A stretch of DNA of 42,837 nucleotides from Blastococcus sp. CT_GayMR20. GTDB taxonomy: Bacteria; Actinomycetota; Actinomycetes; Mycobacteriales; Geodermatophilaceae. Under the pieces are notes generated by a model. The model ran no database searches. It was not told the DNA's origin and worked only from the letters and a program-made list of their open reading frames with translations. Within the stretch, counting starts at the first letter, position 1; every line of letters starts with the position of its first letter. The stretch lies in assembly GCF_004570345.1 (NCBI RefSeq), contig NZ_SPQM01000024.1, forward strand, positions 1 through 42,837, read 5' to 3'. Made by a program: the position numbers and the translations under genes. Positions 1 through 42,837 of this stretch are shown piece by piece.

Positions 1-132
1 ACATCCGAAACCGCACGCCGAGCGGCTCTGTCAGGCTGGCTCCACCACTACAACAACCACCGGCCCCACACCGCCCTGGGCAACCTCCCGCCCATCAACC
101 GTTGCACCAACGTCTCCGGGCAGTACACCTAG
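1..132 (+). CDS. IS481/IS3-type transposase, C-terminal end (partial)
   Basis: Frame 1 is open from the window edge and encodes 43 residues before a TAG: it includes GWLHHYNNHRPHTALGNLPP and ends NVSGQYT. The WLHHYNNHRPHTAL block is the characteristic end of the rve/rve_3 integrase core of IS481 (and IS3) transposases, which cut and join DNA through a DDE active site. The catalytic part lies outside the window. The stop overlaps the convergent stop of the DinB-like gene (129-131), and no terminal inverted repeat of an IS is recognisable after it, so it may be a degenerate or orphan copy. The window stops inside this gene, which fits an assembly break at a multicopy element. Confidence 0.8.
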   Translation, partial: TSETARRAALSGWLHHYNNHRPHTALGNLPPINRCTNVSGQYT

Positions 133-1022
133 CCCTTCCGGAACAGGCGGCCGAGCATGCCGCCGGCACCGCCGACCGTCCGCGCGGCCAGCTGCAGGAT
201 CGGGCCCCCCGGGATGCCGGGCACGGCCTGCACGATGGGGGCCAGCTGCAGCAGCCCGCCGACGTCGTGGACCTTCAGCCTGCGGCGGGCCACCGCGGGT
301 ACCGGGTTGATCCGGCCCGACGCCGCCTCGAGCAGCAGGTCCGCGGGCGCCTCCACGGCCGGCCCGGTGAAGGCGTCGGGGGCCACCCGGCGGACGGTCC
401 AGCCGTCGGCCGCGGACGCGAATGCCCACCCACCCTCCGGCGTGGCCAGCGTGACGCCGCCGGAGATGGCCATCGACGCGGCCAGGGCGCCGGTCACGTC
501 GGCGAGCGCGGCCAGGCCCGACTGCAGCACGTCCGGAGGCGGGGGAGCGGCCCCGCACGAGACCAGGTCCAGGCCGTGGACGGCGAGCTCGTACGCCTGA
601 CCCAGGACGACGCTCAGCAGCGGGATGCTCCCGACGACCGACACGGTGGGCGCGGTGTCGAGCTCGACGGGCTCCTTGGCCAGGTAGTCGGCGGTCGCGT
701 CCCGGTTCCGCTGCAGCGCCGCCACGACCTCCTCGCGAGGGGCGTCCCGGTGGGCAGCGGTCACGCGGGCGTTGACGGCGTCCACGTCCGGGGGAGTGCC
801 GGCCCCGCCGTCGCGCGCCGACGCGATCAGATCGGCGAGCGCGGTGTGGTCGTCCCAGCAGCCCAGGTGGACGCAGATCTCCTGCGCCCGCCAGCCGCGC
901 AGCCGCGACGGCCGGCTCAGCTCGACCTGCTCCGCCTGCGCGAGGAACGCGTCCCACGCCCCCAGCACCATGCCGGCGATCTCGTCGCGACCGGCGTCGG
1001 CCATGCCCTGGTGTCGGTCCAT
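129..1022 (-). CDS. Maleylpyruvate isomerase-family (mycothiol-dependent DinB-like) protein
   Basis: 297 residues. The N-terminal third (about 15-60) has the four-helix DinB/MDMPI pattern, with WDAFLAQAEQVEL, then SRLRGWRAQEICVHLGCWDDH, including the His and Asp positions that often bind metal in this fold. The C-terminal half (about 200-260) resembles the MDMPI C-terminal or SCP2-like part. Actinobacterial family members catalyse mycothiol-dependent isomerisation or transfer reactions, but most are uncharacterised, so the substrate is unknown. ATG at 1022 gives MDRHQGM; an internal ATG (residue 7) is equally possible because neither has a clear ribosome site. Divergent from the diguanylate cyclase, with 137 bp between; its stop overlaps the transposase stop. 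Confidence 0.72.
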   Translation of the reverse strand: MDRHQGMADAGRDEIAGMVLGAWDAFLAQAEQVELSRPSRLRGWRAQEICVHLGCWDDHTALADLIASARDGGAGTPPDVDAVNARVTAAHRDAPREEVVAALQRNRDATADYLAKEPVELDTAPTVSVVGSIPLLSVVLGQAYELAVHGLDLVSCGAAPPPPDVLQSGLAALADVTGALAASMAISGGVTLATPEGGWAFASAADGWTVRRVAPDAFTGPAVEAPADLLLEAASGRINPVPAVARRRLKVHDVGGLLQLAPIVQAVPGIPGGPILQLAARTVGGAGGMLGRLFRKG

Positions 1023-1065
1023 CGGCGACCACTACCCGGCTCCGGCGACGGCAGGCGTGGAGACG

Positions 1066-1085
1066 GACGTGGCACGCGCCACGTC
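1066..1085. promoter_or_regulatory. Operator-like palindrome between divergent genes
   Basis: Perfect inverted repeat gacgtggc / gccacgtc with a 4 nt centre (acgc), in the 137 bp gap between the DinB-like gene (-) and the diguanylate cyclase (+). Position and symmetry fit a dimeric repressor or activator site that could serve both promoters. An overlapping outer pairing, cggacg / cgtccg, also exists. No regulator gene lies next to it, and the protein that binds is unknown. Confidence 0.4.
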
Positions 1086-1159
1086 GTCCGGCAACCGATC
1101 TCCCTCCGAGGGGTGAGGCGCGGATCAAGCAGGGGTCCCGAACCGCCGATCGCAGGACC

Positions 1160-2305
1160 GTGACCGAAGCAGCGGCAGCCGAACGCCGCGCCACCCGTGC
1201 GCCCCTCGGCGCACCCACCCGGCCAGGACTCCTGCGCCGGGTGCTCTCCGCGGTGCGCGACGGTCTCTACCGCCCGCTGGCCGGGGACGACGACCGGGTG
1301 GCCTACTGGCTCGGCCACGTGCGCATCGGCGTGATCGTCAGCGAGGTCGCGTGCTGGTCGGTCGTCGGGTACGTGCTCCTCACCGGCAGCCCCGGGCGGC
1401 ACTCCTTTGCCATCTTGGCCGCACTCGCGCTCGTCATCGTCGCCTGCCCGTGCATCCTCCTGCTCCCGTTGAGCGCGATGATGCGCGACTCCCGCGGTCC
1501 CACCTTGTTCTACGTCTGGAGCTTGGCCGAGACGGCCGTCGTGGTCCTCGTGACACGACTCGACGGGGGGTCGTCCAGTCCGCTGGACGCGCTGCTCTTC
1601 CTCGCGCTCACCTACGCCGCGGTGGCCTACTCCCCGTACGGCGTCGTGGCCATGGGCAGCGTCATGACCCTCAGCTACCTGTTCGTCGTCGAGCTTCCTG
1701 GCGTCACCACGGCCGGCCTGTTCTTCATGGTGATCATGGGTTCCTTCACCCTGATCTGTGCCATGGCCTCGGCAAATTCATGGGCCATCTACGACCGCCA
1801 GGTCCTGCTGATCCGCACGCAGGAGACGCTTGCCTCGACCGACCCGCTGACCGGCATCCCGAACCGACGGGCGTACATGGAGCGCGTCGCTGCGGCCGTG
1901 AACGCCGCCGCGTGGGGTCACCAGACGGTCGTCTGCCTGGTCGACCTGGACGGCTTCAAGGCCGTCAACGACGTCGGTGGCCACGCGGCCGGCGACTACA
2001 TGCTGAAGTCGGTGGCCACGGCCCTGGGCGGCGCGGTGCGGGAGACCGACACCGTCGCCCGCCTCGGCGGTGACGAGTTCGCCGTCCTGGCCGACGTCTC
2101 GGTGACCTTCTCCGGCGAGATGCTCGCCGAGCGGGTCCGCCAGGCCGTCGCGGCGGTCGGCGCCGCCTCCGGTGTGACCGCCAGCGTCGGCGTCGCCGAG
2201 GTCCAGCCCGGGGACGACGTCGAGGACCTCATGCACCGTGCGGACGCCGCCATGTACCGCTCGAAGAGCGCCGGCGGCAACCGGGTCACCGCGCTCGCCT
2301 GCTGA
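1160..2305 (+). CDS. Membrane-bound diguanylate cyclase (GGDEF)
   Basis: 381 residues, GTG start. About six hydrophobic segments (roughly 55-77, 83-105, 114-132, 142-160, 161-179, 183-205) form a membrane sensor region with no named domain that I recognise. A GGDEF domain follows (about 225-381). It has the DPLTGIPNRRAY entry motif, the metal/GTP part VDLDGFKAVND, and an intact GGDEF active site at 303-307. The inhibitory I-site RETD sits at 294-297, exactly five residues before GGDEF. It should therefore make c-di-GMP from two GTP at the inner membrane face and be inhibited by its product. There is no EAL domain. It is followed after 47 bp by the cold-shock-like gene on the same strand. Confidence 0.92.
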   Translation: MTEAAAAERRATRAPLGAPTRPGLLRRVLSAVRDGLYRPLAGDDDRVAYWLGHVRIGVIVSEVACWSVVGYVLLTGSPGRHSFAILAALALVIVACPCILLLPLSAMMRDSRGPTLFYVWSLAETAVVVLVTRLDGGSSSPLDALLFLALTYAAVAYSPYGVVAMGSVMTLSYLFVVELPGVTTAGLFFMVIMGSFTLICAMASANSWAIYDRQVLLIRTQETLASTDPLTGIPNRRAYMERVAAAVNAAAWGHQTVVCLVDLDGFKAVNDVGGHAAGDYMLKSVATALGGAVRETDTVARLGGDEFAVLADVSVTFSGEMLAERVRQAVAAVGAASGVTASVGVAEVQPGDDVEDLMHRADAAMYRSKSAGGNRVTALAC

Positions 2306-2352
2306 CCCGCCCGGCTCTTGCTGCGCCGGCGCCGGGGGCGCAACCTGGCGGC

Positions 2353-2613
2353 ATGGCGCGCAGCGGCACCACCCTCGGCACGGTCATCCGCTGGGACGAG
2401 GACCGGCACGGCGCGGTCATCGAGGCCTCCGAGCTCCCCGGCGACTGCTGGGCGGACGCGTCGGTGGTCGAGCACAGCACCACGGGCGCCGGAACGCTGC
2501 GCGCCGGCCAGGTCGTCGAGGTCGACTGGACCGAGCCAGGGGACAACGGACGGCCGTTCCGGGCGGTGCGCGTGGTTCCGCGGGAGGACCTGCAGGCCAC
2601 CGTCGGCGGATGA
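2353..2613 (+). CDS. Cold-shock-domain-like small protein
   Basis: 86 residues, ATG start. The pattern GTVIRWDEDRHGAVIEA, then LPGDCWADASVVE, LRAGQVVEVDWTEPG and GRPFRAVRVVP follows the five-strand order of a CSD/OB fold (compare GxVKWF..GxGFI, DVFVH, LxxGQxVxFxV, GPxAxxV). The aromatic RNP1 and RNP2 residues are mostly replaced, as in a divergent actinobacterial CSD subfamily with GGCWAHFS-like motifs. A nucleic-acid-binding role is inferred only. The ribosome site is weak (ggcggc). It lies 47 bp after the diguanylate cyclase and could be cotranscribed. A short GC hairpin (2322-2327 / 2337-2342) sits in that gap. Confidence 0.68.
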   Translation: MARSGTTLGTVIRWDEDRHGAVIEASELPGDCWADASVVEHSTTGAGTLRAGQVVEVDWTEPGDNGRPFRAVRVVPREDLQATVGG

Positions 2614-2986
2614 CTCTTCGGCCCCGGGCCACCCCTCATATCCGCGTCCGTCACTCTGAGTGACGAGAACCGGGTGATGGTCACTCAACTGGAACGAGGC
2701 GCTGACCAGCGGTCACACCCCGGACGGCCGGTCTCGCGATGCCGCGCCGAGCCCGGTGGACTCATCGGCGTACCCCGTGGTATTGCGCCTGACCAGCAGT
2801 AAGACGCATCACAGGTCACCTTCAGTCACATTCGAACCAACTGTCCCAACCGGGCTGGCGCGATGGGGCACCTATCGTGCAGACTGTTCGCAGGAGCCCT
2901 GCTCCGTCACTGCCGAATACAGCGCGTCACCGAGTCGCTTGGTCCGTAGGGGAAGACGAGACCAGTCGAGTCGATGGAGGTGCCCC
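2614..2986. other. Intergenic region upstream of DUF3145 with TCAC-type dyads
   Basis: 373 bp without a credible gene. An open frame runs through it into DUF3145, but lacks a ribosome site and reads as non-protein-like sequence. It holds a 15 nt dyad (2650-2664) and a second one, gtga-tgg-tcac (2674-2684). More ggtcac/gtcac half-sites occur near 2710, 2815 and 2825. A TANNNT box (tatcgt, 2873-2878) could be a -10 for DUF3145, but I see no matching -35. Confidence 0.6.
2650..2684. promoter_or_regulatory. Tandem GTCACTC dyads, putative operator
   Basis: gtcactc-t-gagtgac is a perfect palindrome at 2650-2664. Ten bases later gtga-tgg-tcac (2674-2684) is followed by tc, so the gtcactc half-site repeats. 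Two related dyads with about 22 bp between centres, two helical turns, suggest a dimeric regulator binding cooperatively on one DNA face upstream of DUF3145. The binding protein is unknown. Confidence 0.4.
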
Positions 2987-3487: not shown

Positions 3488-3510
3488 GCTCATCACGATC
3501 TGAACACGAC

Positions 3511-3532: not shown

Positions 3533-3550
3533 CGTCGTAGCCTGGGACCG

Positions 3551-3673: not shown

Positions 3674-5089
3674 TCAGAGCGGGATGTTGCCGTGCGCTCC
3701 GCGGCCCGGCGGGGCGTCGGACAGCGCGTCCACCAGCCGGCGCCGGGTGTGCGACGGCTGCACGACATCATCGACGACGCCGATCTCCAGCGCGCGGTGC
3801 ACGCCTCCGGCGATCCGCTCGTGCTCCTCGGCCAGGCGGGCGTGCAGCGCCTCGCGCTCCCCGGGCGGCACCGCGGCCAGCTTCCTGCGGTGCAGGATGC
3901 CGACGGCGGCCTTGGCACCCATGACCGCGACCTCGGCGCCGGGCCACGCGAAGACCTTCGTCGCCCCGAGCGACCGGGCGTTCATCGCGATGTACGCACC
4001 GCCGTAGGACTTGCGGGTCACCAGCGTCACGCGGGGGACCACCGCCTCGGCGAACGCGTGCAGCAGCTTGGCGCCCCGCCGCACGACGCCGTCCCACTCC
4101 TGGCCGACGCCGGGCAGGTAGCCGGGCACGTCGACCAGGACGACCAGCGGGATGCCGAAGGCGTCGCACATCCGCACGAAGCGGGCCGCCTTCTCGGCCG
4201 AGGCGGAGTCCAGGCAGCCGCCGAGCCGCAGCGGGTTGTTGGCGATGACGCCGACCGTCCGCCCCGACATCCGGCCGAGGGTCGTCACGACGTTGGGCGC
4301 GAACCGCGGATGCAGCTCCAGCCCCGGCCCGTCGAGCACCCCGACCACCAGCGGCTTGACGTCGTAGGCGCGGTTCCGCTGTTCGGGCAGCAGGGCGGCG
4401 AGGTCGACGTCCGGCTCGTCGCCGAGCGGCCGGAACGTCCCCTGGGCGGCGAGCAGGTCGACCGCCGTCCGGGCCGTCGCGAGGGCCGCCTCCTCGGAGT
4501 CGGTCACCACGTGGACGACGCCGCTGCGCCGGCCGTGGGTGTCCGGCCCGCCGAGGCTCTCCATGTCCACGTCCTCGCCGGTCACCGAGCGGACGACGTC
4601 CGGACCGGTGACGAAGACGCGCCCGGCCGGACCCATGATCACGAGGTCGGTGAGCGCCGGCCCGTAGGCGGCGCCGCCGGCGGCCGGTCCCAGGACGACG
4701 GAGATCTGCGGGATGCGCCCCGACGCGCGCACCATCGCGGCGAACACCTCGCCGACGGCGTGCAGGGCGGTGACCCCCTCGGCCAGGCGGGCGCCGCCGG
4801 AGTGCCAGATGCCGACGGCCGGCATCCGCTCGCGCAGCGCCGTGTCGATGGCGTCGACGATGTGCAGGCAGCCGTCGACCCCCATGGCGCCGCCCATGAC
4901 TGTGGCGTCGGTGCAGTAGGCGATGGCCGGGGTGCCCTGCACGGTGCCCCGCGCCGCGAGGACGCCCGAGGTGTCGCGGCCGGTCAGCGGCTGCATCGTC
5001 CCGTCGTCGAAGAACCGGGCGAGACGGTCCTCAGGGTTCCGCGGGTCGAGGGCAGGCGGGGGCGGCGCGGCCGAGACCGTCGTCAACAA
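3674..5089 (-). CDS. accD: Acyl-CoA carboxylase carboxyltransferase (AccD6-like)
   Basis: 471 residues, the usual length for actinobacterial AccD beta subunits, without the E. coli-type zinc finger. Transfers CO2 from carboxybiotin to acetyl- or propionyl-CoA to make malonyl- or methylmalonyl-CoA. Both crotonase-fold halves are present. The N-domain oxyanion loop is SGGARLAEG (97-105), the C-domain loop is TRKSYGGAY (358-366), and GPAAGGAAYGPALTD also appears. Last gene of the FAS-II run, 21 bp after fabF, the position held by accD6 in mycobacteria, so malonyl-CoA supply for FAS-II is likely. Start is TTG at 5089, or more probably the next codon TTG at 5086, which is 6 bases from GGAGG. The biotinylated alpha partner is not in the window. 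Confidence 0.93.
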   Translation of the reverse strand: MLTTVSAAPPPPALDPRNPEDRLARFFDDGTMQPLTGRDTSGVLAARGTVQGTPAIAYCTDATVMGGAMGVDGCLHIVDAIDTALRERMPAVGIWHSGGARLAEGVTALHAVGEVFAAMVRASGRIPQISVVLGPAAGGAAYGPALTDLVIMGPAGRVFVTGPDVVRSVTGEDVDMESLGGPDTHGRRSGVVHVVTDSEEAALATARTAVDLLAAQGTFRPLGDEPDVDLAALLPEQRNRAYDVKPLVVGVLDGPGLELHPRFAPNVVTTLGRMSGRTVGVIANNPLRLGGCLDSASAEKAARFVRMCDAFGIPLVVLVDVPGYLPGVGQEWDGVVRRGAKLLHAFAEAVVPRVTLVTRKSYGGAYIAMNARSLGATKVFAWPGAEVAVMGAKAAVGILHRRKLAAVPPGEREALHARLAEEHERIAGGVHRALEIGVVDDVVQPSHTRRRLVDALSDAPPGRGAHGNIPL

Positions 5090-5110
5090 GGGCCTCCAAG
5101 GTCCTGATCG

Positions 5111-6352
5111 TCAGGCCGTGGTGAAGACCAGGGCGATGTTGTGGCCGCCGAAGCCGAAGGAGTCGTTGACGGCGGCGCTGATGCTGGCGCGACGCGGTTC
5201 GGTGCGGACGATGTCGAGCGCCTGCACGGCGGCGTCGTCGTCCGGGTCGTCGAGGTTCGCCGTGGCGGGGACGATCTGCTCGCGCAGCGCCAGGATCGTG
5301 AACACCGACTCCAGCGCCCCGGCGGCACCCAGCAGGTGGCCCGTCTGGCTCTTGGTGGCGCTCACCAGCACGTGCTCCCCGAGCGAGGAGCGGATGGCCG
5401 CGGCCTCCGCCGTGTCGCCGACCGGCGTCGACGTGGCGTGGGCGTTGACGTGGCCGATGTCGGCGGGGCTGAGGCCGGCGTCGCGCAGCGCCGCGGTGAT
5501 GGCGCGCGCCGCGCCCTCGCCCTCGGGGTGCGGGGCCACCAGGTCGTAGCCGTCGGCGGTGCCGGCGGCACCGGCCAGCCGGGCGTGGATGCGGGCGCCG
5601 CGCGCTCGGGCGGCGTCGCCGCGCTCGAGCACGATGCATGCCGCGCCCTCGCCCAGCACGAAGCCGTCCCGGCCCTTGTCGAACGGGCGGGAGGCCCGCT
5701 CCGGCTCGTCGTTGCGGGTGGACATGGCGCGCATCGCTGCGAAGCCGGCCATGGGCAGCGGGTGGACGCAGGCCTCGGTGCCGCCGACGAGGACGACGTC
5801 CGCGCGGTCGAACCGCAGCAGGTCCAGGCCCCAGCGGATCGCCTCGGCGCCGGACGCGCACGCGCTCACCGGGGCGTGGACGCCGCCCTTCGCGCCGACC
5901 GCCAGCCCCACGGCCGCGGCCGGGCCGTTGGGCATGAGCATGGGGATGGTGAAGGGGGAGACCCGCTTGGGGCCCTTCTCCTCCAGCACGTCGTCCTGAC
6001 CGAGGAGCGTGAGCGCGCCACCGATGCCGGTGCCGATGACGACCGCGATGCGCAGGGGGTCGATGCCCGCCTCGCCGGCGCCGGAGTCCCGCCAGGCCTC
6101 CTCGGCGGCGATCACCGCGACCTGCTGGCTGCGGTCGAGCCGGCGGGCGCGGACGCGGTCGATCTGGTTGACAGGGTCCGAGGCGAGCCGCGCGACGAGC
6201 TGGGCCGGGTACTCCTTGATCCAGTCGTCGGTGATCCGGCTGACCCCCGACGTGCCGGCGAGCAGGGCGTCCCAGGTCGTGGCGACGTCCCCGCCGAGAG
6301 GCGTGGTGGCGCCGAGACCGGTGACGACGACGTCGGTGTCGGACGGGCTCAT
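5111..6352 (-). CDS. fabF: 3-oxoacyl-ACP synthase II (FabF/KasA-like)
   Basis: 413 residues. Condenses malonyl-ACP with a growing acyl-ACP in FAS-II elongation. The thiolase-fold catalytic set is complete: Cys165 in SACASGAEA, His305 in NAHATSTPVGDT, Lys334 and His339 in KSQTGHLLGAAG, with the ending NDSFGFGGHN. ATG at 6352 follows AGGAGG with a 7-base spacer, a very strong site that rules out the longer open frame upstream. It lies 100 bp after acpP across a hairpin repeat, and 21 bp before accD. One fabF is seen here, where mycobacteria have the kasA-kasB pair. Confidence 0.96.
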   Translation of the reverse strand: MSPSDTDVVVTGLGATTPLGGDVATTWDALLAGTSGVSRITDDWIKEYPAQLVARLASDPVNQIDRVRARRLDRSQQVAVIAAEEAWRDSGAGEAGIDPLRIAVVIGTGIGGALTLLGQDDVLEEKGPKRVSPFTIPMLMPNGPAAAVGLAVGAKGGVHAPVSACASGAEAIRWGLDLLRFDRADVVLVGGTEACVHPLPMAGFAAMRAMSTRNDEPERASRPFDKGRDGFVLGEGAACIVLERGDAARARGARIHARLAGAAGTADGYDLVAPHPEGEGAARAITAALRDAGLSPADIGHVNAHATSTPVGDTAEAAAIRSSLGEHVLVSATKSQTGHLLGAAGALESVFTILALREQIVPATANLDDPDDDAAVQALDIVRTEPRRASISAAVNDSFGFGGHNIALVFTTA

Positions 6353-6390
6353 GACGTTTCCTCCTGCAGTGGTGGCCGGGTGACCGGGGT

Positions 6391-6450
6391 AAGGCCCCCC
6401 TGCAGGGGCCCGCCGCGAGCGTGCGAGCGGTGGGGGGCAGGGGGGTCCTT
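6391..6450. terminator. Extended hairpin in the acpP-fabF gap (contains 31 bp repeat copy)
   Basis: The outer stem pairs aaggcccccctgc with gcaggggggtcctt (13 pairs, one bulged T). The inner stem is the 31 bp repeat 6409-6439, cccgccgc / gcggtggg. It begins 2 bases after the acpP stop and ends 38 bases before fabF, so it could partly terminate, or protect the 3' end of an acpP transcript, giving more acpP than fabF mRNA. Confidence 0.6.
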
Positions 6451-6452
6451 CG

Positions 6453-6698
6453 TCAGCCCTGGTTCTTCTCGATGAAGCTGATCGCGTCGCCGACCGTCTT
6501 GATGTTGCCGAGCTCGTCGTCGGGGATGGCAACGCCGAACTTGTCCTCGACGGCGGTGGCGATCTCGACCATCGACAGGGAGTCGACGTCGAGGTCGTCG
6601 GTGAACGACTTCTCGGGGGTGGCGTCGGCAGGCGTGACGCCGGCGACCTCCTCCAGGATCTCGGCCAGACCGGACTGGATCTCCTGGGTGCTGCTCAC
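6453..6698 (-). CDS. acpP: Acyl carrier protein
   Basis: 81 residues, acidic. Carries acyl chains on a 4'-phosphopantetheine arm attached to Ser40 in DDLDVDSLSMVEIA. The four-helix ACP pattern is complete, from IQSGLAEILEEVAGV to TVGDAISFIEKNQG. GTG start with a GAGAGAGGA ribosome site 5-6 bases upstream. It sits between fabH and fabF with 76 and 100 bp gaps, unusually wide for this otherwise tight operon, and both gaps hold hairpins, suggesting separate tuning of the abundant ACP. Confidence 0.97.
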   Translation of the reverse strand: MSSTQEIQSGLAEILEEVAGVTPADATPEKSFTDDLDVDSLSMVEIATAVEDKFGVAIPDDELGNIKTVGDAISFIEKNQG

Positions 6699-6720
6699 GC
6701 GGGTCCTCTCTCTCGGATGG

Positions 6721-6761
6721 GGCGGGCGGGGCCCGCCGACGTCCGGGACCGGGTGTCCCGG
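6721..6761. promoter_or_regulatory. Two hairpins just upstream of acpP
   Basis: On the coding (minus) strand ccgggac / gtcccgg (6743-6761, 5 nt loop) is followed by ggcggg / cccgcc (6721-6737, 5 nt loop), immediately before the acpP ribosome site. They could be an RNase processing boundary or attenuator separating fabH from acpP. There is no T-run. Confidence 0.45.
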
Positions 6762-6774
6762 AGGGTTGTGGGTA

Positions 6775-7740
6775 TCACGGAAGGACCAGTACCTGCCCGG
6801 CGAAGGTCAGGCCGGCGCCGTAGCCGAGGACGAGCGCCAGGTCGCCGGACTTGGCCTCGCCGGACTCCATGAGCGCGGTGAGCGCCAGCGGGATCGAGGC
6901 CGCCGAGGTGTTGCCCGACTGCACGATGTCGCGGGCGACGACGGTGGTCTCCGGGAAGCCGAGCCGCTTGGTCATCGACTCGACGATGCGCAGATTGGCC
7001 TGGTGGGGGGCGAACACGTCGATGTCGGCCGGTCCGACGCCGGCCCTCTCCATCGCCTCGACCAGGGTCTCGGTGAGCTTCGTCGTCGCCCAGCGGTAGA
7101 CCGCCTGACCCGCCATGGTCATCGTCGAGCTGCCGGCGGCGATCTCGATGGCGTTGTACTGGTCGCCGTCGCTGCCCCAGGCGACCGGGCCGATGCCGGG
7201 CTCGTCGGAGGCGCCGACCACGGCCGCGCCGGCGCCGTCGGCGAAGATCACCGCCGTCGTCCGGTCCTCCAGGTTGGTGACGTCGGTGAGCCGTTCGACC
7301 CCGACGACCAGCGCGTTGCGCGAGGAGCCGGCGCGGATGTTGTCACTCGCGACGCCGAGCGCGTAGCAGAAGCCGGCGCAGCCCGCGTTGAGGTCGAAGG
7401 AGCCGGGGCGCGGCACGCCCAGCCGGTGGGCGACCTGCGGGCCGATGCCCGGGATCGGCGCGCGGAGGCTGGCGCTGGCGACGATGACGAGGTCGATCTC
7501 GTCGGGCGCGAGGCCGCTGGCCGCGAGCGCCTTGCCGCCGGCGGCGACGGCCATCTCGACGAGCGTCTCGTCCTCGGACGCCCAGCGGCGTTCGGCGATG
7601 CCGACGCGGCTCTGGATCCACTCGTCGTTGGTGTCCATCATCTGGGCGAGGTCGTCGTTGGTGACCCGACGGCGGGGCCGGTAGGAGCCGAGGCCGAGAA
7701 TGCGTGCCCCCGGGGCACCGGTCGGCAGCTGAATGGTCAT
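6775..7740 (-). CDS. fabH: 3-oxoacyl-ACP synthase III (FabH)
   Basis: 321 residues. Starts fatty acid synthesis by condensing an acyl-CoA primer with malonyl-ACP. The catalytic triad is complete: Cys121 in NAGCAGFCYAL, His246 in APHQANLRI, and Asn277 in QSGNTSAAS. The N-terminus ILGLGSYRPRRRVTNDDL and DTNDEWIQSRVGI are typical. ATG at 7740 is fixed by GGAGG seven bases upstream and by a 4 bp ATGA overlap with the preceding small gene, so the longer open frame is rejected. Actinobacterial FabH enzymes often accept branched primers, but specificity cannot be read here. Confidence 0.96.
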   Translation of the reverse strand: MTIQLPTGAPGARILGLGSYRPRRRVTNDDLAQMMDTNDEWIQSRVGIAERRWASEDETLVEMAVAAGGKALAASGLAPDEIDLVIVASASLRAPIPGIGPQVAHRLGVPRPGSFDLNAGCAGFCYALGVASDNIRAGSSRNALVVGVERLTDVTNLEDRTTAVIFADGAGAAVVGASDEPGIGPVAWGSDGDQYNAIEIAAGSSTMTMAGQAVYRWATTKLTETLVEAMERAGVGPADIDVFAPHQANLRIVESMTKRLGFPETTVVARDIVQSGNTSAASIPLALTALMESGEAKSGDLALVLGYGAGLTFAGQVLVLP

Positions 7741-7985
7741 GCGCTGACCTCCGGGTAGAGACGGGCGATCGGATCTCCGGCGTCGACGAGGTCGCCGTCG
7801 TGGACGAGCCACTCCGCCAGTACCCCGCCGTAGGCCGCCGAGACGTGGACATCCTCGCGACGGCTGCGGATCGAGCCGAGCCGGCTGCCCGCGGGCAGCG
7901 AGCTGCCTTCCGGGACGTCGACCGGGCTGACCGTGCCTCGCACGGGGGCGACGACGAGCCGCCAGCCGAAGCCGAGCTCGCTCAC
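7737..7985 (-). CDS. Biotinyl/lipoyl-like domain protein without lysine
   Basis: 82 residues. The whole protein is one hammerhead-like domain. LVVAPVRGTVSPV (10-22) matches the first beta strands of biotin carboxyl carrier domains, PEGSSLPAGSRLGSI (25-39) the usual EGD.V..G..L.., and YGGVLAEWLVHDGDLVDAGD with PIARL (52-76) the returning half. Where carriers have EAMKM, this has RSRREDV (40-46), and the protein contains no lysine at all, so it cannot be biotinylated or lipoylated. It overlaps fabD and fabH by 4 bp on each side (GTGA, ATGA), hence is translationally coupled with both. A structural or docking role in the FAS/carboxylase assembly is inferred only. Confidence 0.75.
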   Translation of the reverse strand: MSELGFGWRLVVAPVRGTVSPVDVPEGSSLPAGSRLGSIRSRREDVHVSAAYGGVLAEWLVHDGDLVDAGDPIARLYPEVSA

Positions 7986-8920
7986 GCTGCGCCCCCGAGC
8001 AGCTCACGGGCGCGGTCGAGGTCGGCCGGGGTGCTCAGCGCGAGGATCTCGACACCGGCGCCCTTCCACTCGCGCTTGGCGAGCCCGGCCAGCGCCCCGG
8101 CCGGCGGCAGCTCGATCACGGCGGTGACGCCGAGGTCGCGCATCGTGGCGAGACAGGAGTCGAAGCGCACGGGGCTGGTGACCTGGCTGACCAGGCGGCG
8201 CACGACCTCGGCCCCGGAGTCGATCGCTGTGCCGTCGGCGTTGGAGAGCAGCCGCCGGCTGGGATCGGCCGGTGTCAGACCGTCCACCCGGCCCGCCAGT
8301 TCCTCGCGCGCCGAGGCCATGTAGTCGGTGTGGAAGGCACCGGCCACCGAGAGCGGCATGATCCGCGCCTTCGCCGGGGGGTCGGCCTTCAGCGCCTCCA
8401 GGCCCTCGAGCGCGCCGGCGGCCACGACCTGGCCGGCGCCGTTCATGTTGGCCGGGCTGAGGCCGAGCTTGTCGATCGCGGCCAGCACCTCCTCGGGGTC
8501 GCCCCCGAGGACGGCCGACATCCCGGTCGGCGTCTGCGCGCACGCGGCGGCCATCGCCCGGCCGCGGGCGGCGGTCAGCGCGATCGCCTCCTCGGCGGTC
8601 AGCACGCCGGCGAGGGCGGCGGCCGTGAGCTCTCCGACGCTGTGCCCGGTGATCACGACGTCGTCGCGCGGCGGTGCGCCGGGCTCCGGGAGGACGCCGA
8701 GCTCCCCGGCCACGAACAGGCTCATCGCGACGACGAGGGGCTGGGTGACCGCGGTGTCCTTGATCGCCTCGGCGTCGCCCGTGGTGCCCAGGGTCAGCAG
8801 GTCGGCGTCGGCGATGTCGCCGGCCCGGCGGAAGAAGGACTCCGCGCCCGGGAGATCGAGCCAGTCGGTGAGCATTCCGGGTTTCTGCGCACCCTGTCCG
8901 GGGGCGAGTACGGCCAGCAC
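7982..8920 (-). CDS. fabD: Malonyl-CoA:ACP transacylase (FabD)
   Basis: 312 residues from GTG at 8920. Moves malonyl from CoA to AcpP. The N-terminus LAVLAPGQGAQKPGML and the LGTTGDAEAIKDTAVTQPL block closely follow mycobacterial FabD. The nucleophile is Ser94 in GHSVGE, with His197 in GAFHTDYM. The start is set by family homology: the open frame extends 28 codons further, but its first codon (TTG) has no support. A GTG at codon 13 of that extension is an alternative. First gene of the coupled fabD - 82-residue protein - fabH set, 165 bp after fasR. Confidence 0.94.
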   Translation of the reverse strand: MLAVLAPGQGAQKPGMLTDWLDLPGAESFFRRAGDIADADLLTLGTTGDAEAIKDTAVTQPLVVAMSLFVAGELGVLPEPGAPPRDDVVITGHSVGELTAAALAGVLTAEEAIALTAARGRAMAAACAQTPTGMSAVLGGDPEEVLAAIDKLGLSPANMNGAGQVVAAGALEGLEALKADPPAKARIMPLSVAGAFHTDYMASAREELAGRVDGLTPADPSRRLLSNADGTAIDSGAEVVRRLVSQVTSPVRFDSCLATMRDLGVTAVIELPPAGALAGLAKREWKGAGVEILALSTPADLDRARELLGGAA

Positions 8921-9085
8921 CCCTTCACCGTGCCAGTGATCATCGGTCGGCGGGCGGTCGAGCGGCACGAAAGCACACGGCTGATCTTTGTGAGAACCCT
9001 CCAAAGGCGGGCCCCCGTCACGGCTCGTTCACGCATTCCAGTGGTGGACTCCACACCGCACGACGGGCCGGAGCTGCTATGGCGC
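8921..9085. promoter_or_regulatory. fasR-fabD intergenic region with short palindrome
   Basis: 165 bp between the fasR stop and fabD start, the expected place for the fab operon promoter and FasR binding. It contains gtgga-c-tccac (9044-9054), a perfect 11 nt palindrome read from either strand. I find no confident -10/-35 pair. A GGAGG 78 bases before the GTG is unused by any good start. Confidence 0.4.
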
Positions 9086-14537: not shown

Positions 14538-17342
<2,805 letters not shown>

Positions 17343-17457
17343 GTCTCCATCGTCTCCCGTCGGGGTCACCGGCGTCACGCCTACCGGCCGGTTGTGTGCC
17401 GAGTCGTGCGTGCTCGCCCGATCGTCCTCCCACCAGGCGTTGTCCGCCGCACGCGGC

Positions 17458-17485
17458 TTGCGTCCGGCCCGCCATGCCCTACGCT
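17458..17485 (+). promoter_or_regulatory. Possible sigma-A-type promoter
   Basis: ttgcgt and tacgct, 16 bp apart, on the plus strand. It would drive the 28-codon ORF and DUF3052/ahpE. Boxes only partly match TTGACA/TANNNT. Confidence 0.3.
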
Positions 17486-17578
17486 TCCGCCAGCGGTCGC
17501 TCGCTGGAACGGGCTCCGCACCGCACGCCCTGCCGCCACGGCCTGGCGGCGGCTGCCGGCAAGGACGAGAGGGGTGAC

Positions 17579-17665
17579 ATGACCAGGCTGCGGGGAGCGC
17601 TCCCGCCGGTCGTGTCCGTCCTGAGCCACGTGATCCCGGCAGACGACGCGGATCCGGCACTGTGA
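17579..17665 (+). CDS. Possible 28-residue small ORF upstream of DUF3052
   Basis: ATG preceded by gagagggg with a 4-base spacer, then 28 codons ([20 protein letters not shown] ... ADPAL) to TGA. Not recognised as any family; a hydrophobic middle, two acidic residues near the end. It lies 88 bp before DUF3052 on the same strand and could be a leader peptide or a chance ORF. The good ribosome site is the only support. Confidence 0.3.
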
Positions 17666-17753
17666 CGCGTCCGCGCGCATTCGGCGCCCCGACAGGGCAC
17701 CATCCAACCGACGGCCGGTCAGCAGCAGGCCAACCCACGGAGGAGCAGCAGGG

Positions 17754-18173
17754 ATGAGCGTCGACAGCGCCGGCATGGCGGCCCGGCTGGGCATCAAGCC
17801 GGGCATGGTCGTGCAGGAGCTCGGCTGGGACGAGGACGCCGACGAGGACCTGCGCGACGCGATCATCGAGGTGTCCGGCGGCGAGATGGTCGACGAGGAC
17901 ACCGACGAGGTGGCCGACGTCGTGATCCTCTGGTGGCGGGAGGACGACGGCGACCTGTTCGACGCCCTCACCGACGCGATCACCTCCCTCGCCGACGACG
18001 GCGTGGTGTGGCTGCTGGTCCCGAAGTCCGGTCGCCCCGGGCACGTGGAGCCCGGTGACGTCACCGAGGTGGCCCCGACCGCGGGCCTCTCGCAGACGAG
18101 CAGCATCTCCGCGGCCAAGGACTGGTCCGGCATCCGCCTGGTGACCCCCAAGGCGGCCCGCTCCCGCCGCTGA
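17754..18173 (+). CDS. DUF3052 family protein
   Basis: 139 residues, ATG after GGAGGAGCAGCAGGG. Acidic N-terminal half ([20 protein letters not shown]), then [20 protein letters not shown] and [20 protein letters not shown], and an end like [20 protein letters not shown], all typical of actinobacterial DUF3052 (Rv2239c-like). Function unknown; the fold resembles nothing I can assign. It is 14 bp from the ahpE-like gene and divergent from aceE, the same neighbourhood as in mycobacteria. Confidence 0.9.
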
Positions 18174-18704: not shown

Positions 18705-18776
18705 GGGCGCGTAGCTCAGCGGTAGAGCTCTCGCCTTACAAGCGAGCGGTCGCAGGTTCGAACCCTGCCGCGCCCA
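18705..18776 (+). tRNA. tRNA-Val (anticodon UAC)
   Basis: 72 nt cloverleaf. The acceptor gggcgcg pairs with cgcgccc, the D stem gctc with gagc, the anticodon stem ctcgc with gcgag around loop cttacaa (anticodon TAC), and the T stem gcagg with cctgc around ttcgaac. Discriminator A; CCA not encoded. Reads GUA (and possibly other GUN) valine codons. Confidence 0.97.
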
Positions 18777-18790
18777 CCTGTGCCCCCGCT

Positions 18791-20237: not shown

Positions 20238-21155
20238 ATGACCGAGACGCAGCGGGACACCTTCGGTGAGAGCCGGACGGTCGATCTCGGTGGCCCTGTC
20301 CACTACGTCGACTTCGGCGGACCCGAGCAGGCGCCGACGGTGGTGCTCGTGCACGGCCTGGGCGGCTCGCACCTGAACTGGGACCTCTTCGCGCCGCTGA
20401 TGCGCCCGCACGCCCGCGTCCTGGCGCTCGACCTGCCCGGCTTCGGCCGCAGCGAGCCCGGCGACCGCAGGACGACGGTGCACGACAACGTCAAGGTCCT
20501 CGACCGCTTCCTGCGCGAGGTGGCCGGCACGCCGGTGGTCCTCGTGGGCAACTCGATGGGCGGGATGATCTCCATCCTGCAGACCGCCGGGTCCCCGGAG
20601 ACGGTCAACGGCCTGGTGCTCCTCGACGCCGCCGTCCCCGGGCCACGCCGGGCGCTCGACCCGCTGGTGGCCGTCACCTTCGCCGTCTACGCGGTACCGG
20701 TGCTGGGGGAGCGGTTCCTCAGGCTCCGGCGGAGGCGCACGACCCCACTGCGCCACGTCCGCGACATGCTCCGGCTGTGCGGCGTCGACCCGGACGCGCT
20801 GCCCCCGTCGACTATCGACCGCTCCATCTCGCTCATCGAACAACGCGAGGACGTCGCGGGAATGGACCGGGCGTTCCTGTCGGCCACCCGGTCGCTGCTG
20901 CGCCTGCTCGTCGACCCGCGCAGCTACCGGCGGTCGATGGCGTCGATCGACGTCCCCGTGCTGCTGGTGCAGGGCGACAAGGACCGGCTCGTGCCGGTGG
21001 CCGCCGCGCGCGACATCGCCGAGCGCCATCCCGAGTGGGAGTACCTCGAGCTGCCCGGCGTCGGGCACGTGCCGCAGCTGCAGGTGCCCGACCGGCTGGC
21101 GACGAAGGTCATCGCCTGGCTCGAGGCGACCGCGTCGGCCCGCGCGTCGGCCTGA
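20238..21155 (+). CDS. Alpha/beta-hydrolase fold enzyme
   Basis: 305 residues, ATG after gagaggg. Complete catalytic triad: Ser106 in LVGNSMGGM, Asp249 (or 247) in QGDKDRLVP, His277 in LPGVGHVPQ. The oxyanion motif is HGLGG (39-43), and LALDLPGFGRSEPG follows. This is the pattern of C-C bond hydrolases, esterases and haloalkane-dehalogenase relatives; the SMG elbow favours esterase or lyase-type hydrolases. A basic stretch RLRRRRTTPLRHVRD occurs in the cap. It converges on the acyl-CoA ligase, 7 bp between stops, suggesting a lipid or acid degradation setting. Confidence 0.88.
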   Translation: MTETQRDTFGESRTVDLGGPVHYVDFGGPEQAPTVVLVHGLGGSHLNWDLFAPLMRPHARVLALDLPGFGRSEPGDRRTTVHDNVKVLDRFLREVAGTPVVLVGNSMGGMISILQTAGSPETVNGLVLLDAAVPGPRRALDPLVAVTFAVYAVPVLGERFLRLRRRRTTPLRHVRDMLRLCGVDPDALPPSTIDRSISLIEQREDVAGMDRAFLSATRSLLRLLVDPRSYRRSMASIDVPVLLVQGDKDRLVPVAAARDIAERHPEWEYLELPGVGHVPQLQVPDRLATKVIAWLEATASARASA

Positions 21156-21162: not shown

Positions 21163-21331
21163 TCAGAGGCTGGCCCGCAGCTCGGTCTTCAGGACCTTGC
21201 CGCTGCCGCCCTTCGGCAACTCGTCGAGGACGACGACCTCGCGCGGGTACTTGTAGGCGGCCAGCCGCTCCTTGCAGAACGCGACGACCTCGTCCGGCGT
21301 CGCGCTCGTCCCGTTCTTCAGCGCGATGAAG
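21163..21331 (-). CDS. Acyl-CoA ligase, C-terminal 56 residues (cut by the palindrome junction)
   Basis: Minus-strand frame FIALKNGTSATPDEVVAFCK ... LPKGGSGKVLKTELRASL to the stop. It is the end of an AMP-forming acyl-CoA synthetase, with the A10 lysine in PKGGSGKVLK. At 21331 the reading passes into the unrelated antisense of the spacer (VDVEEAVVVPF), so the rest of the gene is missing on this side. This is a junction effect, not a natural gene end. Confidence 0.85.
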
Positions 21332-21675
21332 AACGGGACGACGACGGCTTCTTCTACATCGTCGACCGCAAGAAGGACCTGGTGATCCGCGGCGGGTTCA
21401 ACGTCTACCCGCGCGAGATCGAGGAGGTGCTGCACGAGCACCCCGCCGTCCTGGAGGCCGCGGTGATCGGCCGACCCGACGACCGCCTCGGTGAGGAGGT
21501 GGTCGCCTTCATCGCGCTGAAGAACGGGACGAGCGCGACGCCGGACGAGGTCGTCGCGTTCTGCAAGGAGCGGCTGGCCGCCTACAAGTACCCGCGCGAG
21601 GTCGTCGTCCTCGACGAGTTGCCGAAGGGCGGCAGCGGCAAGGTCCTGAAGACCGAGCTGCGGGCCAGCCTCTGA
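21331..21675 (+). CDS. Acyl-CoA ligase (AMP-forming), C-terminal 114 residues
   Basis: Partial at 5' because the palindrome junction removes the upstream part. It reads RDDDGFFYIVDRKKDLVIRG, NVYPREIEEVLHEHPAVLEA, VIGRPDDRLGEEVVAFIALK and ends LPKGGSGKVLKTELRASL. The DRKKDxxxRGGxNxYPxEIE hinge (A8) and the A10 lysine are those of class I adenylate-forming fatty-acid/aryl-CoA ligases, which activate a carboxylic acid with ATP and join it to CoA. The adenylation core lies outside. The first possible internal ATG (21382) is inside the motif and is not a real start. Convergent with the hydrolase mirror copy at 21683. Confidence 0.9.
   Translation, partial: ERDDDGFFYIVDRKKDLVIRGGFNVYPREIEEVLHEHPAVLEAAVIGRPDDRLGEEVVAFIALKNGTSATPDEVVAFCKERLAAYKYPREVVVLDELPKGGSGKVLKTELRASL
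21332..21506. other. Unique spacer at the centre of the palindrome
   Basis: These 175 bases are the only part of the window without a reverse-complement partner. They encode, on the plus strand, the segment of an acyl-CoA ligase containing DRKKDLVIRGG and NVYPREIEEVL, continuous with the right-arm copy of that gene. The left boundary (21306-21341) is a 14 bp inverted repeat, tcgtcccgttcttc / gaagaacgggacga, with an 8 nt loop. The second half of it also occurs as a direct repeat at 21519-21532. This geometry fits a strand switch at short homology. Confidence 0.93.
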
Positions 21676-21682: not shown

Positions 21683-22600
21683 TCAGGCCGACGCGCGGGC
21701 CGACGCGGTCGCCTCGAGCCAGGCGATGACCTTCGTCGCCAGCCGGTCGGGCACCTGCAGCTGCGGCACGTGCCCGACGCCGGGCAGCTCGAGGTACTCC
21801 CACTCGGGATGGCGCTCGGCGATGTCGCGCGCGGCGGCCACCGGCACGAGCCGGTCCTTGTCGCCCTGCACCAGCAGCACGGGGACGTCGATCGACGCCA
21901 TCGACCGCCGGTAGCTGCGCGGGTCGACGAGCAGGCGCAGCAGCGACCGGGTGGCCGACAGGAACGCCCGGTCCATTCCCGCGACGTCCTCGCGTTGTTC
22001 GATGAGCGAGATGGAGCGGTCGATAGTCGACGGGGGCAGCGCGTCCGGGTCGACGCCGCACAGCCGGAGCATGTCGCGGACGTGGCGCAGTGGGGTCGTG
22101 CGCCTCCGCCGGAGCCTGAGGAACCGCTCCCCCAGCACCGGTACCGCGTAGACGGCGAAGGTGACGGCCACCAGCGGGTCGAGCGCCCGGCGTGGCCCGG
22201 GGACGGCGGCGTCGAGGAGCACCAGGCCGTTGACCGTCTCCGGGGACCCGGCGGTCTGCAGGATGGAGATCATCCCGCCCATCGAGTTGCCCACGAGGAC
22301 CACCGGCGTGCCGGCCACCTCGCGCAGGAAGCGGTCGAGGACCTTGACGTTGTCGTGCACCGTCGTCCTGCGGTCGCCGGGCTCGCTGCGGCCGAAGCCG
22401 GGCAGGTCGAGCGCCAGGACGCGGGCGTGCGGGCGCATCAGCGGCGCGAAGAGGTCCCAGTTCAGGTGCGAGCCGCCCAGGCCGTGCACGAGCACCACCG
22501 TCGGCGCCTGCTCGGGTCCGCCGAAGTCGACGTAGTGGACAGGGCCACCGAGATCGACCGTCCGGCTCTCACCGAAGGTGTCCCGCTGCGTCTCGGTCAT
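21683..22600 (-). CDS. Alpha/beta-hydrolase fold enzyme (mirror copy)
   Basis: Reverse-complement copy of 20238-21155; Ser106, Asp249 and His277 unchanged. Its stop lies 7 bp from the ligase stop at 21675, and here the ligase retains its A8 hinge. Confidence 0.88.
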   Translation of the reverse strand: MTETQRDTFGESRTVDLGGPVHYVDFGGPEQAPTVVLVHGLGGSHLNWDLFAPLMRPHARVLALDLPGFGRSEPGDRRTTVHDNVKVLDRFLREVAGTPVVLVGNSMGGMISILQTAGSPETVNGLVLLDAAVPGPRRALDPLVAVTFAVYAVPVLGERFLRLRRRRTTPLRHVRDMLRLCGVDPDALPPSTIDRSISLIEQREDVAGMDRAFLSATRSLLRLLVDPRSYRRSMASIDVPVLLVQGDKDRLVPVAAARDIAERHPEWEYLELPGVGHVPQLQVPDRLATKVIAWLEATASARASA

Positions 22601-24047: not shown

Positions 24048-24061
24048 AGCGGGGGCACAGG

Positions 24062-24133
24062 TGGGCGCGGCAGGGTTCGAACCTGCGACCGCTCGCTTGT
24101 AAGGCGAGAGCTCTACCGCTGAGCTACGCGCCC
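24062..24133 (-). tRNA. tRNA-Val (anticodon UAC) (mirror copy)
   Basis: Mirror of 18705-18776 with all stems intact; not independent evidence for a second tRNA-Val gene. Confidence 0.96.
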
Positions 24134-39327: not shown

Positions 39328-39350
39328 GTCGTGTTCAGATCGTGATGAGC

Positions 39351-39851: not shown

Positions 39852-40224
39852 GGGGCACCTCCATCGACTCGACTGGTCTCGTCTTCCCCTACGGACCAAG
39901 CGACTCGGTGACGCGCTGTATTCGGCAGTGACGGAGCAGGGCTCCTGCGAACAGTCTGCACGATAGGTGCCCCATCGCGCCAGCCCGGTTGGGACAGTTG
40001 GTTCGAATGTGACTGAAGGTGACCTGTGATGCGTCTTACTGCTGGTCAGGCGCAATACCACGGGGTACGCCGATGAGTCCACCGGGCTCGGCGCGGCATC
40101 GCGAGACCGGCCGTCCGGGGTGTGACCGCTGGTCAGCGCCTCGTTCCAGTTGAGTGACCATCACCCGGTTCTCGTCACTCAGAGTGACGGACGCGGATAT
40201 GAGGGGTGGCCCGGGGCCGAAGAG
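39852..40224. other. Intergenic region upstream of DUF3145 (mirror copy)
   Basis: Mirror of 2614-2986, with the GTCACTC dyads at 40154-40188. Confidence 0.6.
40154..40188. promoter_or_regulatory. Tandem GTCACTC dyads (mirror copy)
   Basis: Mirror of 2650-2684. Confidence 0.4.
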
Positions 40225-40485
40225 TCATCCGCCGACGGTGGCCTGCAGGTCCTCCCGCGGAACCACGCGCACCGCCCGGAACGGCCGTCCGTTGTCCCCT
40301 GGCTCGGTCCAGTCGACCTCGACGACCTGGCCGGCGCGCAGCGTTCCGGCGCCCGTGGTGCTGTGCTCGACCACCGACGCGTCCGCCCAGCAGTCGCCGG
40401 GGAGCTCGGAGGCCTCGATGACCGCGCCGTGCCGGTCCTCGTCCCAGCGGATGACCGTGCCGAGGGTGGTGCCGCTGCGCGCCAT
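40225..40485 (-). CDS. Cold-shock-domain-like small protein (mirror copy)
   Basis: Mirror of 2353-2613. Confidence 0.68.
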   Translation of the reverse strand: MARSGTTLGTVIRWDEDRHGAVIEASELPGDCWADASVVEHSTTGAGTLRAGQVVEVDWTEPGDNGRPFRAVRVVPREDLQATVGG

Positions 40486-40532
40486 GCCGCCAGGTTGCGC
40501 CCCCGGCGCCGGCGCAGCAAGAGCCGGGCGGG

Positions 40533-41678
40533 TCAGCAGGCGAGCGCGGTGACCCGGTTGCCGCCGGCGCTCTTCGAGCGGTACATGGCGGCGTCCGCAC
40601 GGTGCATGAGGTCCTCGACGTCGTCCCCGGGCTGGACCTCGGCGACGCCGACGCTGGCGGTCACACCGGAGGCGGCGCCGACCGCCGCGACGGCCTGGCG
40701 GACCCGCTCGGCGAGCATCTCGCCGGAGAAGGTCACCGAGACGTCGGCCAGGACGGCGAACTCGTCACCGCCGAGGCGGGCGACGGTGTCGGTCTCCCGC
40801 ACCGCGCCGCCCAGGGCCGTGGCCACCGACTTCAGCATGTAGTCGCCGGCCGCGTGGCCACCGACGTCGTTGACGGCCTTGAAGCCGTCCAGGTCGACCA
40901 GGCAGACGACCGTCTGGTGACCCCACGCGGCGGCGTTCACGGCCGCAGCGACGCGCTCCATGTACGCCCGTCGGTTCGGGATGCCGGTCAGCGGGTCGGT
41001 CGAGGCAAGCGTCTCCTGCGTGCGGATCAGCAGGACCTGGCGGTCGTAGATGGCCCATGAATTTGCCGAGGCCATGGCACAGATCAGGGTGAAGGAACCC
41101 ATGATCACCATGAAGAACAGGCCGGCCGTGGTGACGCCAGGAAGCTCGACGACGAACAGGTAGCTGAGGGTCATGACGCTGCCCATGGCCACGACGCCGT
41201 ACGGGGAGTAGGCCACCGCGGCGTAGGTGAGCGCGAGGAAGAGCAGCGCGTCCAGCGGACTGGACGACCCCCCGTCGAGTCGTGTCACGAGGACCACGAC
41301 GGCCGTCTCGGCCAAGCTCCAGACGTAGAACAAGGTGGGACCGCGGGAGTCGCGCATCATCGCGCTCAACGGGAGCAGGAGGATGCACGGGCAGGCGACG
41401 ATGACGAGCGCGAGTGCGGCCAAGATGGCAAAGGAGTGCCGCCCGGGGCTGCCGGTGAGGAGCACGTACCCGACGACCGACCAGCACGCGACCTCGCTGA
41501 CGATCACGCCGATGCGCACGTGGCCGAGCCAGTAGGCCACCCGGTCGTCGTCCCCGGCCAGCGGGCGGTAGAGACCGTCGCGCACCGCGGAGAGCACCCG
41601 GCGCAGGAGTCCTGGCCGGGTGGGTGCGCCGAGGGGCGCACGGGTGGCGCGGCGTTCGGCTGCCGCTGCTTCGGTCAC
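40533..41678 (-). CDS. Membrane-bound diguanylate cyclase (mirror copy)
   Basis: Mirror of 1160-2305, GGDEF and RETD I-site intact. Confidence 0.92.
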   Translation of the reverse strand: MTEAAAAERRATRAPLGAPTRPGLLRRVLSAVRDGLYRPLAGDDDRVAYWLGHVRIGVIVSEVACWSVVGYVLLTGSPGRHSFAILAALALVIVACPCILLLPLSAMMRDSRGPTLFYVWSLAETAVVVLVTRLDGGSSSPLDALLFLALTYAAVAYSPYGVVAMGSVMTLSYLFVVELPGVTTAGLFFMVIMGSFTLICAMASANSWAIYDRQVLLIRTQETLASTDPLTGIPNRRAYMERVAAAVNAAAWGHQTVVCLVDLDGFKAVNDVGGHAAGDYMLKSVATALGGAVRETDTVARLGGDEFAVLADVSVTFSGEMLAERVRQAVAAVGAASGVTASVGVAEVQPGDDVEDLMHRADAAMYRSKSAGGNRVTALAC

Positions 41679-41752
41679 GGTCCTGCGATCGGCGGTTCGG
41701 GACCCCTGCTTGATCCGCGCCTCACCCCTCGGAGGGAGATCGGTTGCCGGAC

Positions 41753-41772
41753 GACGTGGCGCGTGCCACGTC
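41753..41772. promoter_or_regulatory. Operator-like palindrome (mirror copy)
   Basis: Mirror of 1066-1085. Confidence 0.4.
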
Positions 41773-41815
41773 CGTCTCCACGCCTGCCGTCGCCGGAGCC
41801 GGGTAGTGGTCGCCG

Positions 41816-42709
41816 ATGGACCGACACCAGGGCATGGCCGACGCCGGTCGCGACGAGATCGCCGGCATGGTGCTGGGGGCGTGGGACGCGTTCCTCGCGC
41901 AGGCGGAGCAGGTCGAGCTGAGCCGGCCGTCGCGGCTGCGCGGCTGGCGGGCGCAGGAGATCTGCGTCCACCTGGGCTGCTGGGACGACCACACCGCGCT
42001 CGCCGATCTGATCGCGTCGGCGCGCGACGGCGGGGCCGGCACTCCCCCGGACGTGGACGCCGTCAACGCCCGCGTGACCGCTGCCCACCGGGACGCCCCT
42101 CGCGAGGAGGTCGTGGCGGCGCTGCAGCGGAACCGGGACGCGACCGCCGACTACCTGGCCAAGGAGCCCGTCGAGCTCGACACCGCGCCCACCGTGTCGG
42201 TCGTCGGGAGCATCCCGCTGCTGAGCGTCGTCCTGGGTCAGGCGTACGAGCTCGCCGTCCACGGCCTGGACCTGGTCTCGTGCGGGGCCGCTCCCCCGCC
42301 TCCGGACGTGCTGCAGTCGGGCCTGGCCGCGCTCGCCGACGTGACCGGCGCCCTGGCCGCGTCGATGGCCATCTCCGGCGGCGTCACGCTGGCCACGCCG
42401 GAGGGTGGGTGGGCATTCGCGTCCGCGGCCGACGGCTGGACCGTCCGCCGGGTGGCCCCCGACGCCTTCACCGGGCCGGCCGTGGAGGCGCCCGCGGACC
42501 TGCTGCTCGAGGCGGCGTCGGGCCGGATCAACCCGGTACCCGCGGTGGCCCGCCGCAGGCTGAAGGTCCACGACGTCGGCGGGCTGCTGCAGCTGGCCCC
42601 CATCGTGCAGGCCGTGCCCGGCATCCCGGGGGGCCCGATCCTGCAGCTGGCCGCGCGGACGGTCGGCGGTGCCGGCGGCATGCTCGGCCGCCTGTTCCGG
42701 AAGGGCTAG
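41816..42709 (+). CDS. Maleylpyruvate isomerase-family DinB-like protein (mirror copy)
   Basis: Mirror of 129-1022. Confidence 0.72.
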   Translation: MDRHQGMADAGRDEIAGMVLGAWDAFLAQAEQVELSRPSRLRGWRAQEICVHLGCWDDHTALADLIASARDGGAGTPPDVDAVNARVTAAHRDAPREEVVAALQRNRDATADYLAKEPVELDTAPTVSVVGSIPLLSVVLGQAYELAVHGLDLVSCGAAPPPPDVLQSGLAALADVTGALAASMAISGGVTLATPEGGWAFASAADGWTVRRVAPDAFTGPAVEAPADLLLEAASGRINPVPAVARRRLKVHDVGGLLQLAPIVQAVPGIPGGPILQLAARTVGGAGGMLGRLFRKG

Positions 42710-42837
42710 GTGTACTGCCCGGAGACGTTGGTGCAACGGTTGATGGGCGGGAGGTTGCCCAGGGCGGTGTGGGGCCGGTGGTTGTTGTAGTGGTGGAGCC
42801 AGCCTGACAGAGCCGCTCGGCGTGCGGTTTCGGATGT
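42706..42837 (-). CDS. IS481/IS3-type transposase C-terminal end (mirror copy)
   Basis: Mirror of 1-132, cut by the window edge at the same codon. Confidence 0.8.
   Translation of the reverse strand, partial: TSETARRAALSGWLHHYNNHRPHTALGNLPPINRCTNVSGQYT

Follow-up and report, generated by a model that had tools for sequence, protein, structure and literature searches.

A perfect 42.8-kb palindrome in a Blastococcus contig is very probably one chromosomal stretch written twice during assembly

Introduction

Positions 1 to 42,837 of contig NZ_SPQM01000024.1, from Blastococcus sp. CT_GayMR20, form a palindrome with its centre in an acyl-CoA ligase gene and both outer ends in an insertion sequence (IS) of the IS481 family. 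This whole stretch of 42,837 nucleotides is called the window below. Its closest described counterparts include chimeras from amplified DNA. For single-cell multiple displacement amplification (MDA), the sections of one report that treat chimeras count 406 inversions among 475 (85%), with at least 2 bases of complementarity in 76.8% and a range of 2–21 bases (PMC1855051), and the part of the ChimeraMiner report on single-end chimeras has the inverted type dominating at a mean of 91.36% (PMC6515389). As those sections describe them, such chimeras resemble the window in joining, in opposite orientation and through short complementarity, two stretches of a single locus that are under 10 kb apart. 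The window differs in that its joint holds an extra 10-base snap-back copy, for which two switches are needed, and in that the joint is built into a whole contig.

Two further systems bear comparison. In a study of single-cell Synechococcus genomes obtained after whole-genome amplification, contigs whose second half exactly mirrors the first were discarded as probable artefacts of assembly (PMC12755884); the passages of that report concerned with these contigs give neither a mechanism nor the amplification chemistry, whereas the joint and the ends of the window can be traced. The other system is natural. The terminus repeats of Lactobacillus delbrueckii ssp. bulgaricus, as set out in the relevant part of PMC5345009, share with the window their long arms (23–37.6 kb) and a short unique centre. 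Features of their own are a centre of 1–8.8 kb and a position at the replication terminus; they are known from three complete published genomes, and two more strains are inferred to have them.

Results

An exact palindrome around a 175-bp spacer

We compared the window with its own reverse complement over its full length. Only 117 positions differ, every one of them within 21332–21506, and the two arms of 21,331 bases each align with 0 mismatches. The perfect palindrome with a 175-bp spacer described by an initial annotation of this DNA thus stands, and the mismatch-rich arm alignment that it had named as contrary evidence did not appear. Chance as the source of the mirror identity is out of the question. 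The spacer itself is ordinary, non-self-complementary sequence, with 58 of its 175 positions matching its own reverse complement. The parts of the palindrome are as follows.

1–21331, minus strand: left arm, matching the right arm's reverse complement exactly, with 0 mismatches
21332–21506, plus strand: spacer, with 10 bases that repeat the arm (21332–21341), then 3' sequence of the acyl-CoA ligase gene that runs on natively into the right arm
21507–42837, plus strand: right arm, the copy natively continuous with the spacer on the relatives' reading and gene order

Genes are doubled in mirror order, as had been reported; tRNA-Val, for example, lies at 18705–18778 on the plus strand and at 24060–24133 on the minus strand. 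We read the left arm as the same DNA written out a second time, with no second copy behind it, and the earlier advice to halve gene counts is correct once the arms are read as one stretch.

The centre is a probable fold-back joint inside an acyl-CoA ligase gene

The features around the centre are listed here.

21340–21675, plus strand: acyl-CoA ligase, C-terminal part; the N-terminal part is absent from the window and could lie on another contig
21683–22600, minus strand (mirror 20238–21155, plus strand): alpha/beta hydrolase (PF00561), convergent with the ligase
21306–21341, no strand: chimeric joint, a perfect 15-bp inverted repeat (21306–21320 and 21327–21341) with a 6-base loop, a snap-back signature
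21334–21341, plus strand: CGGGACGA, 8 bases also present at 21525–21532 of the right arm; a second template switch may have occurred here
21507–21522, no strand: CTTCA-TCGCGC-TGAAG, a native quasi-palindrome that could seed a fold-back

The ligase reads unbroken from the spacer into the right arm, and upstream of DDDGFF its frame in the window passes into the mirrored arm. Relatives were drawn from 209 loci encoding a relative of the hydrolase, 80 of which were kept. A ligase relative is present in 15 of the 80, and in eight (seven Geodermatophilus loci and L015, from a Blastococcus metagenome-assembled genome) it is convergent beside the hydrolase as in the window. The joint was examined in these eight ligase-bearing loci because the nearest four, L001–L004 (near 10900), showed no ligase relative next to the hydrolase. 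In all eight, the ligase frame runs on upstream through ...GDLG(Y/H)(Q/R)D(D/E)D(G/D)FF. The ligase of locus L081 likewise continues upstream, through ...GDLGYRDADGFF, and the full-length frame is open in all three loci checked (L043, L054 and L028). In a wider search, 11 of 112 family genomes had both genes, ligase and hydrolase, matched within a single stretch at E 1e-150 or better.

The 15-base word TGAAGAACGGGACGA of the left-joint hairpin recurs at 21518 in the right arm. At the place of the second switch, the eight relatives carry CGGGACGA in two cases (L028 and L040), CAGGACGA in four and CGCGACGA in two, so the second microhomology would span 5–8 bases. The joint (21331/21332) has the makeup of an MDA-type inverted chimera, in that segments of one locus are joined inverted at a distance of ~175 bases, within the 10 kb typical of that class. 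Its complementarity also lies in the 2–21 base range, with TGAAG/CTTCA giving 5 bp within the 15-bp hairpin and CGGGACGA giving 8 shared bases.

We propose that the minus strand of the ligase 3' region was joined to the plus strand of the same gene ~175 bases off. The 3' end ...TGAAG would have snapped back on the CTTCA of the quasi-palindrome at 21507–21522 and copied 10 bases, and may then have re-annealed through the shared word of 5–8 bases inside the ligase. MDA (phi29) is the likeliest source of the joint and the one we favour, although it is unproven; another library step is less likely.

As a separate observation, the ligase is patchy at this spot on the hydrolase side, with none found in L001–L004 and a copy in the seven Geodermatophilus loci and L015. 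Among the nearest four loci, L002 is labelled unverified Bacillus.

Both outer ends lie 127 bases inside an IS481-family element

1–127, plus strand: IS481-family element, last 127 bases, with the transposase C-terminus (PF13683) and a terminal inverted repeat ending GTACA, delimited by the relatives' ends
42711–42837, minus strand: the same 127 bases of the IS481-family element, mirror of 1–127
128–133, no strand: CCTAGC, an NCTAGN-type target site adjoining the IS tip

The two arms break off at one and the same base of the IS, beyond which the window has no flank. That both ends stop at one base of one transposase gene had been noted before and was borne out, as bases 1–129 encode a C-terminus with rve_3 (PF13683). 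The IS481 family was assigned by similarity to annotated plasmid copies, and bases 1–150 were matched in 42 of the 96 family genomes searched. Ten complete copies from relatives run from TGTAC to GTACA, which places the tip at base 127 of the window. In nine of these copies an identical NCTAGN six bases flanks both sides (in L101 and L108 after a one-base alignment shift); in the exception, L105, the flanking six bases differ between the sides. The motif is taken here from these sequences, and it is presumably the target linked to IS481 in print.

We fetched 16 contig starts from relatives, chosen for a match to bases 1–150 or for tip repeats near the start. The IS tip was seen in 13 of the 16 (L127–L142) and in none of the other three. 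Four contig starts from three genomes (G007, G076 and G065 twice) keep 127 bases of the IS, two keep 99 (both G088) and three keep 95 (all G037), with 96, 122, 219 and 318 bases kept in one contig start each. Contigs from de Bruijn assemblers tend to break off k bases into a repeat, and the final k is commonly 127 in (meta)SPAdes runs and 95 in some single-cell pipelines. The window ends exactly 127 bases into a repeat whose multi-copy status is taken from the relatives. The most fitting reading of its two identical ends is thus a single vertex of a k=127 graph rather than a pair of matching breakpoints. The coincident ends that the initial annotation had called remarkable are real, and they add no further oddity, being the expected repeat vertex of a graph.

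Nine of the 13 tip-bearing contig starts keep 127, 99 or 95 bases of the IS, and such lengths may betray the assembler's k.

One short joint can give the whole palindrome in a toy assembly graph

The toy graph was made up of a single native arm, an IS copy at another place (with different flanks and a random stand-in interior) and a 600-base piece around the left joint. The IS boundary was set from the ten relative copies, and the walking rules were our own. At k=127, unique path extension from the spacer with trimming at the shared repeat returned exactly 1–42837. The same rule gave 73–42765 at k=55, 51–42787 at k=77 and 29–42809 at k=99. One short joint can thus suffice for a perfect 42.8-kb palindrome. 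Its perfect identity is then uninformative, since a single path of the toy graph serves as both arms. When native upstream sequence was added, with that of a relative as a stand-in, the path started at 21334 and there was no palindrome. This points to a data set with few or no reads of native upstream sequence, in keeping with an amplification that began from one or few molecules.

We propose a like course for the assembly of the window. The arm would be present once in the de Bruijn graph, its inner end connected back to itself by the joint. Starting from this loop, a path would extend uniquely outward in both directions through the same arm, until trimmed at the IS481 repeat vertex 127 bases into the element.

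Discussion

Readings of the palindrome

We consider it very probable that the window is an assembly artefact in which ~21.5 kb of ordinary Blastococcus-like chromosome is written twice, whichever origin the joint had. The palindrome is almost certainly no real biological feature. A fold-back chimera and an assembler leaving an inverted junction in both directions had been put forward as choices; they are supported together, the one by the joint at 21306–21341 and the other by the k=127-like ends in the IS.

Several points weigh against this reading. The case for an artefact is built on assembled letters and the sequences of relatives, not on reads or coverage. Only one of three walking rules returned the window, and the exact output depends on the rule: a stricter unitig rule halted at the inner vertex of the arm with 21,633 bases, and a rule with no trimming ran through the IS to 44,807 bases. 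A 256-base joint piece was also too short for linking. The agreement of the ends at k=127 adds nothing of its own, because the IS boundary was preset and the result restates the tip derived from relatives. Among the 13 tip-bearing contig starts, four keep lengths other than 127, 99 or 95. Finally, Lasken and Stockwell argue, in the part of their report that deals with mechanism, that hairpin self-priming is no main route in MDA (PMC1855051), and the joint of the window looks like hairpin priming followed by a second switch.

The joint could have arisen with the same geometry in the polymerase chain reaction or in low-input library preparation, and not from phi29. This form of the artefact is unlikely in our judgement, although the letters of the joint, a short inverted repeat with microhomology, do not identify the polymerase. 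Native reads would presumably outnumber a chimera formed late, and once a native branch is present the toy-graph path is broken. A dominant joint speaks for an origin early in an amplification that started from few molecules.

It is highly improbable that the chromosome carries a genuine large inverted duplication, made when a break was followed by fold-back replication from a short quasi-palindrome. There is a natural quasi-palindrome at the edge of the right arm, and the portion of PMC3315005 on Escherichia coli without SbcCD and RecA describes hairpin capping that gives an inverted chromosome duplication. The initial annotation had thought a natural duplication of this size remarkable, and an artefact is indeed favoured, but size alone is no disproof, since the L. 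bulgaricus arms described above are as large (PMC5345009). According to the survey section of the same report, terminus repeats this large occur in 0 of 1373 other chromosomes, and elsewhere there are just two large repeats, with arms of 8.7 and 9.4 kb. Had the original locus survived beside a duplicate, reads of native upstream sequence would be expected, and in the toy graph such sequence breaks the contig at 21334. Zero mismatches and equal ends are explained without a duplication, and seven relatives' loci of ~21 kb (L001, L002, L003, L004, L006, L008 and L010) hold no inverted self-match of more than 300 bp at more than 95% identity. It is hard to credit that a living Blastococcus-like cell carries a true fold-back chromosome end, or an inverted duplication (21 kb or more) that started from the 5-bp quasi-palindrome of the ligase and reached or passed the IS481 copy.

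Least probable of all is a long-read artefact, in which a missed hairpin adapter or a strand-switch read was assembled as a palindrome: palindromic long reads after whole-genome amplification are described in passages of PMC6218980 and PMC13265396, but read ends would be arbitrary, and ends exactly 127 bases inside a repeat point to short-read graph assembly.

Consequences for annotation

With the window taken as one stretch written twice, each arm gene should be counted once, and open reading frames crossing 21331/21332 should be discarded. Such contigs make genes count twice, simulate inverted terminal repeats and produce false fusion frames at the joint. CheckV, in the section on closed genomes, takes inverted terminal repeats of at least 20 bp as one sign of a closed viral genome, with a length cross-check where possible (PMC8116208), so a fold-back contig could be mislabelled. 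The exact 40-base left-joint pattern had no match in viral_contigs. A simple filter would be equal ends exactly k bases inside a repeat together with a one-sided microhomology joint.

Genes of the arm

The following genes lie in the left arm and are mirrored in the right arm.

14538–18044, minus strand: aceE, pyruvate dehydrogenase E1, within an open frame (PF17831)
3674–9004, minus strand: fatty-acid cluster of the fabD-fabH-acpP-fabF-accD type (PF00698, PF08541, PF00109, PF01039)
6453–6698: open reading frame of 81 amino acids, like an acyl carrier protein, an assignment made by eye

The arm also encodes a PucR-type regulator, a peroxiredoxin, a DUF3052 protein and a carboxyl transferase. 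The hydrolase beside the centre has 84% amino-acid identity to that of Blastococcus haudaquaticus. Six of the seven loci named above match the arm in at least three stretches with the order kept, and L002 matches in one stretch only. In four genomes (G001, G003, G004 and G006) a single contig carries both the outer 6 kb and the hydrolase, over a span of 18.8–23.5 kb as compared with ~21 kb per arm. As regards a place at the replication terminus, like that of the L. bulgaricus repeats, the positions of dnaA and of the locus were compared in two relatives; they are 66 kb versus 3.22 Mb in G006 and 3.23 Mb versus 1.40 Mb in G011.

At the outer edge of the arm, a maleylpyruvate-isomerase-like gene (PF11716; 129–1022, minus strand) has the IS481-family element at its extreme 3' end. 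Its stop lies inside the NCTAGN site at 128–133, and the IS insertion may have set that stop.

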